From NCBI GenBank assembly GCA_003141855.1, contig PLNS01000015.1, positions 78,568 to 142,567 on the forward strand: a stretch of 64,000 nt of DNA, given 5' to 3'. Shown piece by piece: positions 20,457-60,312 of the stretch; position 1 is the stretch's first letter, and each line of letters opens with the position of its first letter. The notes under the pieces are model-generated. The model was not told the DNA's origin. It made no database searches and was given only the letters and a program-made list of their open reading frames with translations. Source of the DNA: Candidatus Bathyarchaeota archaeon (GTDB taxonomy: Archaea; Thermoproteota; Bathyarchaeia; Bathyarchaeales; Bathycorpusculaceae). The translations under genes and the position numbers were made by a program.

Positions 20457-20791
20457 GTTTTCTTGGCAAGTTGGTGTTTTTCTAGATTTCGTTAGGGTTT
20501 TTATGTGCGGGGTTGTTTTTTGTTGGTTTAGGGGTTTGGAGCGTTTTTGGTTTGGTTGGGGGTGAGGTTGGAGGGGAGGAAGTTGGTTTTGTTAGGGTTA
20601 TTCTTTTGAGCCCCATTCATTGGCAATTCGCGTTCATATTTGGAGCCTAATAGCCAGTCATTGCAGAAAACGAGGAGGGAGGCAGGCGCGCGAACATATT
20701 TGGAGCCTAATAGAAACTCATTGCAGAAACCTATAGGGGGAGGTCAAAAAAGCCCTAAGAGGGGTAGGTCGGTATTGGCGTTTTTTGGAGC
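20457..20791 (+). repeat. Dispersed repeat, copy 1 (inverted relative to the 60-kb copy)
   Basis: This segment matches the reverse complement of 59956-60209. Three blocks are perfect: 27 nt (20479-20505 = 60161-60187), 46 nt (20695-20740 = 60007-60052) and 28 nt (20753-20780 = 59967-59994). Between blocks similarity is partial, with indels. Inside it, a 60-nt period is visible: ATATTTGGAGCCTAATAG starts at 20636 and again at 20696. The 20319-20456 stretch before it shows no gene. Confidence 0.85.
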
Positions 20792-20891
20792 CAAACACAT
20801 GTTGCTTCGCGGATGCAATAGCTTTTTTAATCCACGCCTTCACCATATTTTGCGGTGCACACAAACGGAAGAACCACAGATTTGGACTCCT

Positions 20892-25040: not shown

Positions 25041-25234
25041 GATCTAGCGCTCGGAGCAGACTATACCCCCCTTTTATATAGGCAGGTTCTAGCGTTGACC
25101 TACTACTCTGAGGCACCTACCCCCTCCCTTATATATAGACTTAAACGCTGAGGCGCTAATGGCTGCAAAAAACGGCAATGGCGACCTACCCCCTATAGGT
25201 TTCTGCATGCTATTGCTATTAGGATCCAAATACG
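25041..25234 (+). repeat. Dispersed repeat, copy 2 (A-B-C motif arrangement)
   Basis: Three GACCTACCCCC-like motifs occur in the same order as at 59.8-60.05 kb: A (CTATACCCCCCTTTTATA from 25061), B (CACCTACCCCCTCCCTTATA from 25114) and C (GACCTACCCCCTATAGGTTT from 25183, followed by a diverged copy of the TTCTGCA...CTATTAGG block). Spacing differs between loci. The 25018-25354 gap otherwise holds only the mch promoter. Confidence 0.75.
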
Positions 25235-25305
25235 TTTATGGTAGCTTCTGTTCAGGACACGCAAAAAAACGGATAAACCTTAAAAACGCCAAAACCAGCG
25301 TTACC

Positions 25306-34367: not shown

Positions 34368-34491
34368 CCGTAAACCCCCTTTTCAGACAGGATTATTTGT
34401 TTGTGGGAAAATTTTGTGAATAGTTCTGTTAGCGTTGACGCGGCAATTAAGCATTTCTACAGAAACGTCGTTGCACTCTATTGCTCGAAAC

Positions 34492-34511
34492 GACCTCTCC
34501 CTCCCTTATAA
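34492..34511 (+). repeat. Isolated copy of repeat motif B
   Basis: GACCTCTCCCTCCCTTATAA matches the B motif found in the repeats at 25.1, 52.7, 53.4 and 59.9 kb. It is the only recognisable structure in the 34368-34594 gap apart from AT-rich flanks. Confidence 0.55.
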
Positions 34512-34594
34512 AAAGAACCAAACGCTCTCCGCAATTGTTGCTTGTCTATGGTTATTCGTGTACTTCAAAAAACACAAACATCGAGCGATTTAGC

Positions 34595-51538: not shown

Positions 51539-52540
51539 ATGTTTACGCTTGACGTTTCTTGGCTTATCGATTCTGTTTTCATTTTTGCGTTAGCTTTCCT
51601 CATTGACTTAGTCTTGGGCGAGTATCCTGACAGGATTCACCCAACAATCGGCATAGGCAAAATAATATTGTACCTCAAGCGCAAAGCGAAGAATGTGAAT
51701 CCGCGGGTTGAGAAAGCAAACGGCGTCTTAATGGCGTTAACCATAATGCTGGTTGTTTCGTTTCCAGTGTTCCTGTTGCTTTTCTGGCTCCGCTTATCCT
51801 TCGGGTCTATACCATACATCATTGCGGGCGCTGTCTTGTTTAAGGCTACTTTTGCAGTGAAAGGCATGGGACAATACACCAACCCCATCGCTAAAGCCCT
51901 AAAGCAGAACGATTTGGCTGAGGCACGGAAATGGCTACCCTACATCGTCAGGCGCGACCCAAACAGCCTCAATGAGCGCCAGATTATTTCTGCAGCCGTC
52001 GAATCCATCGCGGAAAGCACCACCGACGGGATAACTGCCCCGTTCTTTTTCTTTGCGTTGTTTGGTGTTCCGGGCGCTTTTGCGTACCGCGTGGTTAACA
52101 CGTTGGATTCTATGGTTGGCTACAAGAACGTGGAAAACAGGAACATCGGCTGGTTCTCGGCCAACCTTGACACTGTAGCCAACTACATTCCAGCACGGTT
52201 GACAGCTTACTTGATGGTTGCCGCATCCTTTCTTTTAGGCGAGGATTGGCGCGAGTCATGGCGCATCCTCCAGCGCGACAAGCATAAAACGGCAAGCCCA
52301 AACGCTGGCTACACCATCTCAGCTATGGCGGGAGCATTAAACATCCAACTCGAAAAACAAGGCTACTACACCTTGGGCGATGACCATGGAATTTCGCCTG
52401 AACACATTTCGAAGGCTTTGCGGGTGATGACGTTGACGGCTGTGCTGTTTGGGTTGGTCGTGGTTGTGCCCGTTTTGGCGTTGCGAATTATGTTGTGGGA
52501 CTCTAGTGCTCTTGCAGTCTATACCCCCCTGTATTTATAG
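51539..52540 (+). CDS. cbiB: Adenosylcobinamide-phosphate synthase (CbiB)
   Basis: 333 aa membrane enzyme joining aminopropanol phosphate (from CobD) to cobyric acid. Family segments: FLIDLVLGEYPDRIHPTIGIGK near the N terminus, AESTTDGITAPFFFFALFGVPGAFAYRVVNTLDSMVGYKN and SPNAGYTISAMAGALNIQLEK. The last residues after IMLW (DSSALAVYTPLYL) and the stop are encoded by the left end of the adjacent IS-like element, so the natural C terminus seems to have been replaced. The enzyme is probably still functional, as the conserved core is complete. Confidence 0.92.
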   Translation: MFTLDVSWLIDSVFIFALAFLIDLVLGEYPDRIHPTIGIGKIILYLKRKAKNVNPRVEKANGVLMALTIMLVVSFPVFLLLFWLRLSFGSIPYIIAGAVLFKATFAVKGMGQYTNPIAKALKQNDLAEARKWLPYIVRRDPNSLNERQIISAAVESIAESTTDGITAPFFFFALFGVPGAFAYRVVNTLDSMVGYKNVENRNIGWFSANLDTVANYIPARLTAYLMVAASFLLGEDWRESWRILQRDKHKTASPNAGYTISAMAGALNIQLEKQGYYTLGDDHGISPEHISKALRVMTLTAVLFGLVVVVPVLALRIMLWDSSALAVYTPLYL

Positions 52541-52541: not shown

Positions 52542-52851
52542 TTCAACGAATGCAGACCACTTAATGTTTAGATGAGGCGCATTCATTGTAGAGAAGCAAT
52601 TTGTTGGCAGCATTTGTGAGGAAATTTTTGTGTTCTCTCATCATTAGCTTTTGGCGCTGGTTTGTTTGCTTCAAAATTAATTTGAATTCTGCCTCTCTCT
52701 GTGTGACCTCCCCCTCCCTTATATCAGTAGATCAAAAAATTCGCAATTTTTCAAGCTCTCAGCTTTTCTTCATCATTGCTTTTTCCTTTGCCACCTTCAA
52801 TCCACAGACTTCAAAGTCTTCTCATCATCACATATACCCAAACAAGTCATC

Positions 52852-53343
52852 TCAACCCACCTTCACGTGCCCAAGTATACATTTATCCAGCATTGGAGCT
52901 ACTGCTAAGGTTACTCTTTCTCCGTTGACAAGGACGCTTGCAGTGGCGAACCTGTAGGCAAGGTTGGAACCGTTCTTGCGCACGGCGCCTACTACTCCTT
53001 GCGAAGAGGGGTTGCCATAGTACATTATGTCATGCCAATCTATTGCCAAAGTGAGCGGTTTGGATAGGGCGTCTCTTTTCTTCATTTTCTGTATGATTTC
53101 ATGGTTGATTATGGCGAAGCGTTGTGGGTTTTGGGGTTTTAGGTGGTTTCTGACTGTTTGGCCGCAGATGCGTAAGCTTTGGGCGCATCCTTCAACGTAG
53201 CTGTTGTCTAGTGAGGCTAAAAGTAGAACTCGGATGGTGTCGTCGCTTTTTCTGGTGTCTTTGAATTCAAAAAAACTGCTGATTGATTCTTTAAAATATA
53301 AGTAAGCCTTTGCCCTATCAAATCGTTTAGGGATGTGCTGTAG
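52852..53343 (-). pseudogene. Transposase remnant (DDE type, IS4/ISH3-like)
   Basis: An open frame of about 163 codons with no usable start in its first half (first ATG at 53085). It encodes a helical N-terminal part (RVLLLASLDNSYVEGCAQSLRICGQTVRNHL) and the first catalytic block LTLAIDWHDIMYYGNPSSQGVVGAVRKNGSNLAYRFATASVLVNGERVTLAVAPM. After APM the frame ends within 13 codons, so the second half with the remaining D and E residues is missing. The element therefore cannot make its own transposase. Confidence 0.8.
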
Positions 53344-53464
53344 CTATTCATCTCTAATTCACCAAAATTGGTTACAGCGCAATCCCCTAAAAGTTTTGAT
53401 CTGCTGGTATAAGGGAGGGTAGGTCACACTGAGCACTAGCTTTTTTCATTTAGCCAGTAATTTT

Positions 53465-53504
53465 GCCTTTAAATAGGGGGTATAGTCAAAAAAGAGCACT
53501 AGAC
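53465..53504 (-). repeat. Right terminal inverted repeat (motif A)
   Basis: Reverse complement reads TCTAGTGCTCTT, variable bases, then GACTATACCCCC and TATTTAAAGG, mirroring the left end. It ends 10 nt from the stop of the ABC-2 permease gene. Confidence 0.75.
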
Positions 53505-59688: not shown

Positions 59689-59804
59689 CTAATTTTTTTC
59701 TCCTATGTGTTGTTTGCTTGCGGTTCAGCCTTTCGGCCACATCCCAACGGACATGATTGTCCGCCTGCAATTTCACATCATAGTGCCCTGCAACGAAATA
59801 AACC
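59689..59804 (-). promoter_or_regulatory. Promoter and structured leader of the L15e operon
   Basis: A TATA-like GGTTTATTTCG (59794-59804, minus strand) predicts transcription from about 59770, giving an 80-nt leader. It contains a 6-bp hairpin CGGACA-ATCA-TGTCCG (59748-59763) and a GCC-GAAA-GGC hairpin (59728-59737), then AGGAG before the ATG. The stretch ATGATGT...CTGA also resembles C/D-box sRNA boxes, but no second box pair is clear. Confidence 0.45.
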
Positions 59805-59831
59805 TTTCCCGCATCGGATGCTTGGAACAGT

Positions 59832-60209
59832 CTATAGCCCCCTTATTTAAAGGCGGATTAACGCTGTGTTGAAGGGCTAGCTCTCTCACGGCGACCTACC
59901 TCCTCCCTTATATATAGAACCCAACGATAAGGCACCGATTTTCAACATGCTAATGAGCCTGTTTTTCGCCAATACCGACCTACCCCTCTTAGGGATTTTT
60001 GACCTACCCCCTATAGGTTTCTGCAATGAGTTTCTATTAGGCTCCAAATATGAATGCGACTTGCCAATGAAATTGGGCTCTAGCATGGCCCGACAACGCA
60101 TATCTACGCCACCCCTCACCCCACCAAACGCTAACAGGAAAAACCAGAAAACACCCCACCCATAAAAACCCTAACGAAATCTAGAAATAAAGAAATTTAC
60201 CAAGAAAAC
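59832..60209 (-). repeat. Dispersed repeat, copy 3 (most complete)
   Basis: On the plus strand this reads A (CTATAGCCCCCTTATTTAAA from 59832), B (GACCTACCTCCTCCCTTATA from 59893), a diverged C (GACCTACCCCTC from 59977) and C (GACCTACCCCCTATAGG from 60001), followed by TTTCTGCAATGAG...CTATTAGG and a flank to 60209. The 59956-60209 part is the inverted match of 20457-20791. A 77-codon frame (60119 to 59886, minus) runs through it. The 60210-60312 remainder shows no gene. Confidence 0.85.
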
Positions 60210-60312
60210 AATTTTCTCAGCGTACAACAGAGGTTGTTAGGAATTCATTGCTTTACGCTGTGTGGTTCGTCGTTTCAAAAATTGCCTCAAGCTTTTGTGT
60301 AAACTTATCGCT

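Follow-up and report, generated by a model that had tools for sequence, protein, structure and literature searches.

Two families of short modular intergenic repeats share a core motif in an archaeal genome

Introduction

Three described repeat systems appear closest, judged by form, to the elements reported here: BOX (PMC3049150), REPIN (PMC3116915), and STAR (PMC3532100). BOX elements of Streptococcus are composite intergenic repeats made of a few module types in a fixed order, with an inner tandem module of variable number, for which ISSpn2-like terminal inverted repeats and a predicted RNA stem-loop have been reported (PMC3049150). REPINs are inverted REP doublets that fold into hairpins and are linked to Y1 (RAYT) transposases; these short repeats are non-autonomous, lie outside genes in high copy, and have near-identical copies at unrelated sites (PMC3116915). 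STAR elements of Staphylococcus are interspersed intergenic direct repeats of ~50 bp, whose arrays expand and contract and whose copy number does not follow phylogeny. Their loci lie in different places in different species, and their spacers are locus-specific (PMC3532100). A search of the open-access literature returned no description of the present repeats in Bathyarchaeia or other archaea. We analyzed them starting from a stretch of 64,000 nucleotides (the window), which is part of a 2.39-Mb archaeal genome labelled G000; its relatives are labelled G0xx.

Results

A preliminary description of this DNA had reported that variants of an 11-mer, GACCTACCCCC, recur in the window. All the sites that it listed are present, and searches with two models, R2 for A/B modules and R1 for C modules, match those sites and give no other strong hit. 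R2 has nine window matches (at 25044, 25101, 34478, 52503, 52695, 53408(-), 53466(-), 59819, and 59883), and R1 matches at 25183(+), 60000(+), 20690(-), and 20631(-), with E values of 1e-12 to 1e-20. However, the 11-mer itself is the wrong unit. Exact GACCTACCCCC occurs only twice in the window, and at two or fewer mismatches there are 10 matches versus 6.2 expected, a count reached in 12 of 100 shuffles. We therefore rejected the 11-mer as the repeat unit on its chance-level count. The significance resides in extended modules and not in the 11-mer alone, the true units being longer modules with a common GACCTACCCCC-like core. What had been taken for a single motif thus survives as a shared core, but the module types are four (A, B, C, and D). 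The features of the window are as follows.

20631-20673 (-): E module, a degenerate tandem C copy; R1 match, E 1.7e-12
20690-20745 (-): C module; R1 match, E 4.8e-20
20746-20805 (-): D module; together with C, 93% complementary to 59967-60052
25044-25082 (+): A module, directly after the stop codon of a CitG-family gene; R2 match, 25.6 bits
25101-25139 (+): B module; R2 match, 23.5 bits
25155-25182 (+): conserved stretch upstream of C, TAATGGC...GCAATGGC; from the alignment of upstream regions
25183-25236 (+): C module, upstream of mch, in a slot also occupied in G022 and G025; R1 match, E 1.4e-15
34478-34517 (+): B module without C; R2 match, 29.1 bits
52503-52540 (+): A module that overlaps a CobD/CbiB gene at its 3' end (ORF 51539-52540; CobD_Cbib match); R2 match
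52695-52725 (+): B module, its TATA interrupted by an insertion sequence (IS) relic; R2 match, 24.3 bits, and sequence
52725-53406 (-): IS relic with ends CAGTAGATCAAAA / TTTTGATCTGCTG; transposase fragment at 52855-53310
53408-53439 (-): B module, inverted; R2 match
53466-53502 (-): A module, inverted, directly after the stop codon of an ABC-2 permease gene; R2 match
59819-59853 (+): A module, upstream of the eL15 leader; R2 match
59883-59919 (+): B module; R2 match
59939-60000 (+): D module, TTTTCAACATGCTAATG...CGCCAATACCGACCTACCCCTCTTAGGGATTTTT; repeated at many G000 loci
60001-60056 (+): C module, in a slot common to G022, G024, and G018; R1 match, E 1.7e-20; identical to copies at unrelated loci
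60057-60215 (+): C/A-rich tail, common to the copy at 20.45-20.66 kb; inverted repeats I2 and I3

Some of the listed sites change identity under this scheme. Those at 52517 and 53487 are A modules of the GACTATACCCCC type rather than of the GACCTACCCCC type, and the sites at 52.5/52.7 and 53.4/53.5 kb make up two inverted A-B pairs flanking the IS relic. The conserved A-B-C order at 25 and 60 kb was correctly recognized, as A-B-(D)-C, and A-B-C is also found at the orthologous eL15 locus of G018. The A module at 52503-52540 extends over the final codons of the CobD/CbiB-like gene, whose TAG stop it provides. The eL15 ribosomal leader (RF03144), which is named for Euryarchaeota, lies at 59717-59763 (-) of the window, in a Bathyarchaeia-like genome, and similar sequence is found upstream of eL15 across the genus.

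Family C has a 52-bp unit, CCTATAGGTTTCTGCA-N8-CTATTAGGCTCCAAATATG, laid out as GACCTACCCCCTATAGG TTTCTGCA N8 CTATTAGG CTCCAAATATG, often with TTTAACATGCTAATGGCTGCAAAAAACGCCAATAGC just before it. Family A/B has the form GCTC-N15-CCCTTATTTAAAG, module A being CTAGTGCTC-N5-GACTATAGCCCCCTTATTTAAAGGC and module B CTAGTGCTC-N4-GACCTACCCCCTCCCTTATTTAAAGCAC. D consists of the upstream stretch of C followed by GACCTACCCCTCTTAGGGATTTTT, and E modules are degenerate tandem copies of C, with no change of strand within a locus. The complete order is A-B-D-C-E, with a partial set at most loci. In distant members of the order (L182, L180, L184, and L179), a low-copy variant core carries GTTTTCAACA instead of TTTCTGCA, and then CTATTAGGCTCCAAATATG; the D module likewise starts with TTTTCAACATG.

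The ordered composite with a variable inner tandem module that characterizes BOX is found here (A-B-D-C-E, with 1-4 C/E copies per locus), a likeness of form, the boxA, boxB, and boxC sequences being outside the comparison. Of the terminal inverted repeats and predicted RNA stem-loop reported for BOX, a conserved RNA structure was not found here, and by eye no terminal inverted repeat was seen at the ends of the 52-bp unit. REPINs and STAR elements each differ from the present repeats in at least one defining feature that was tested. Like REPINs, these are short, extragenic repeats in high copy, non-autonomous and near-identical at unrelated places, but here the copies are in tandem on one strand, with no conserved structure, and in most element-rich genomes no Y1 transposase is found. 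PF01797 (Y1/RAYT) was not found in G000, G007, G013, G018, G022, or G032, and it is present in some genomes without the repeat. A REPIN/RAYT system was rejected on these grounds, mixed strands occurring in 0 of 19 multi-copy loci and no hairpin being conserved. Direct-repeat arrays as in STAR, where spacers are ~40 bp, are also present, the tandem C/E cores being mostly 56-67 bp apart, and here too copy number is independent of phylogeny. In contrast to STAR, slots and orientation are common to species, and some cores are identical at unrelated loci. As for MITEs, no autonomous copy was seen, nor was a terminal inverted repeat detected by eye.

Across G000, we found ~130 copies of C at ~108 loci on 23 of the 30 contigs, and at least 89 copies of A/B, which together make ~200. 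Placement between genes or at gene ends, as reported earlier for the window, holds for the whole genome. C copies are intergenic in 115 of 124 cases although the examined DNA is 77% coding (binomial P 3e-62), which is far from the chance-level occurrence in coding regions that had been named as the observation that would count against the motif. The nine remaining copies are all in doubtful ORFs, and A/B modules are also intergenic. Neither family shows an orientation bias relative to neighboring genes: the tandem-same, convergent, divergent, and tandem-opposite classes hold 23, 22, 24, and 18 C modules and 12, 10, 8, and 14 A/B modules, respectively, a few of these context calls being possibly wrong under the simple longest-ORF rule used. 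Spacing of C loci is slightly more even than random (CV 0.77, P 0.03). C modules also lie at the start or end of contigs (C12:1-29, C18:3-36, C19:1-45, and C2:16735-16773), and contigs ending within C modules indicate that the repeats probably break the assembly, so that the copy number is a lower bound.

Among 121 genomes, C copy number is bimodal. It is at least ~45 in roughly 15 genomes (G000, G007, G013, G018, G022, G024, G025, G029, G032, G067, G072, G079, G087, G092, and G096), intermediate in a few, and 0-7 in all others, many congeners among them; the search scored no more than 45 candidates in each genome. Within the genus, genomes lacking the repeat include G002-G006, G008, G010, G012, and G014. 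On a tree of eL15, C-rich genomes are scattered, and G018, which is rich, stands next to G011, which has 5 copies. A/B modules are abundant in G000, G018, G011, G015, and G009, less numerous in several other genomes, and undetected in the majority, as judged with an R2 model that derives mainly from G000 copies and could overlook divergent ones. As this distribution differs from that of C, each family varies between genomes independently of the other. In a contig scan with a pattern whose spacer was 9 rather than 8 bases long, the sole named carrier found was a Candidatus Bathyarchaeota MAG; together with the archaeal eL15 leader and the mch gene of the window, this makes a host in or near Bathyarchaeia probable. 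A viral origin was rejected, as viral contigs gave no match to one exact pattern of the repeat.

In the close relative G022, 47 of the 73 loci examined are at G000 C slots, 44 of the 47 in the same orientation, versus a chance expectation of ~5% for ~108 loci among perhaps 2000 intergenic regions (the latter an estimate). Elements stand in the eL15 slot of G000, G022, G024, and G018, and relics in C-poor G011 and G015 are located at G000 slots. The gap between aspS and asnB holds C in G000 and B in G022 and G011, and B-like modules stand directly after aspS in G013, G018, G007, and G006. At shared slots, the 31 conserved core columns are 91% identical, compared with 58-61% in the flanks and a background of 55.5%. 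The DNA around these slots has thus nearly lost similarity while the core is kept, and the present data fit selection and re-copying equally. An argument for concerted evolution, from orthologous cores being no more alike than others, was toned down because the flanks are nearly saturated and selection alone would give the same result.

An identical 36-bp core is present at six unrelated G000 loci, which points to recent copying. Alignments between unrelated loci start and stop at unit borders. One pair, C25:21754 and the 20.7-kb copy, has 272 bp in common at 92%. Near-consensus cores are found both at slots shared with G022 and at slots only in G000, which allows for in-place replacement as well as new insertion. 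A clean empty site with a target duplication was not obtained.

Discussion

The explanation that we favor, with a little more confidence than doubt, is that two families (C/D/E and A/B) of short modular intergenic interspersed repeats, BOX/REPIN/STAR-like, have the motif as their common core; these repeats would have spread by copying and be kept by a trans-acting factor. Shared slots together with near absence in many close relatives suggest upkeep by some factor. This putative factor, DNA-binding or DNA-processing and sequence-specific, would recognize the cores, would have copied them in unit-sized pieces between intergenic slots, and would keep them intact by re-copying, selection, or both; in a lineage losing it, copies would decay to few relics. 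The protein-binding motif proposed earlier agrees with this insofar as a motif recurs between genes, genome-wide and in related species, as judged from sequence; binding itself is predicted. RAYTs are excluded as the factor for most rich genomes, and the local IS is excluded as the source. Counting against the favored explanation, no factor was found, no autonomous copy was seen, a clean empty site did not turn up, and freely mobile repeats would not usually keep the same positions across species.

C/G tracts and short inverted repeats, visible in single copies, could mark structured RNA or G-quadruplex elements, and unusual structures had been proposed for the G-rich strand. This we regard as extremely improbable and rejected, as the consensus structure of the C module has 0 pairs (63 sequences), the upstream stretch has no conserved RNA structure on either strand, no canonical G-quadruplex motif is present on either strand of six element regions, and Rfam has no match at the modules. 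It is also improbable, if less so, that the modules are transcription signals, with A/B (carrying TTATTTAAAG) acting as promoters or with modules ending transcription between genes. A/B do have TATA-like stretches, some stand directly after stop codons, and D contains CCCTCTTAGGGATTTTT, which resembles a weak terminator. But both C and A/B, being free of orientation bias, are equally frequent between divergent and convergent genes, for which a promoter or terminator role was rejected; moreover, at eL15 a conserved leader stands between module and gene, and the leader region is kept in relatives without the element. That the modules are decayed ends or miniature copies of an IS, such as the one at 52.5-53.5 kb, seems to us quite improbable, although the transposase fragment there is flanked by inverted A-B pairs and weakly matches PF14210 (DUF4322), and a DDE_Tnp_1 domain is present in its full-length relative in G018. 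That genome has the complete IS and a miniature copy, both placed within B boxes and bounded by their own CAGTAGATCAAAA ends, which differ from module ends, and by TTAA/ATAA-type target duplications; among 60 relatives, a close match to the window transposase was found only in G018; and no terminal inverted repeat was seen by eye in the 52-bp unit. Most element-rich genomes are without the IS, which was rejected as the repeat source and is a visitor in B boxes. In 3 of 3 cases examined (window 52725-53406, L254, and L309), the IS and its miniature copy lie within the TATA of B modules, and the IS may therefore target these boxes. The inverted A-B pairs around the window IS are not accounted for by a single insertion.

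A further alternative, which we consider unlikely but worth serious attention, is that the modules are host-functional sites of a lineage-specific chromosome-organizing, segregation, or nucleoid protein, selected at fixed slots and lost with the system, their spreading being incidental. Slot and orientation kept between species, a core kept in decayed surroundings, the all-or-few distribution across relatives, the spacing slightly more even than random, and the lack of a link to gene orientation are all consistent with it. Yet the modules at a given slot vary freely in number and type, as between aspS and asnB, the C and A/B families vary independently of each other, copying is indicated by identical cores at unrelated loci, the evenness of spacing is a weak signal, and many congeners do without modules. 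Along the same lines, the modules could conceivably, though we doubt it, be recognition sites of an undescribed archaeal chromosome-scale system (an organizer, a segregation machinery, or a site-conversion machinery), filling about a hundred inherited intergenic slots; these sites would be rewritten where they stand and would all disappear from a lineage that loses the system.

The repeats coincide with breaks in the G000 assembly, and one IS family inserts into them. If the favored explanation of copied and factor-maintained repeats is true, archaea would have BOX/REPIN-like repeat populations, in which slots outlive the surrounding sequence and wholesale loss occurs in sister species. Such lineages would provide a natural experiment, by presence and absence, through which the factor maintaining the repeats could be sought, a question shared with bacterial STAR elements.
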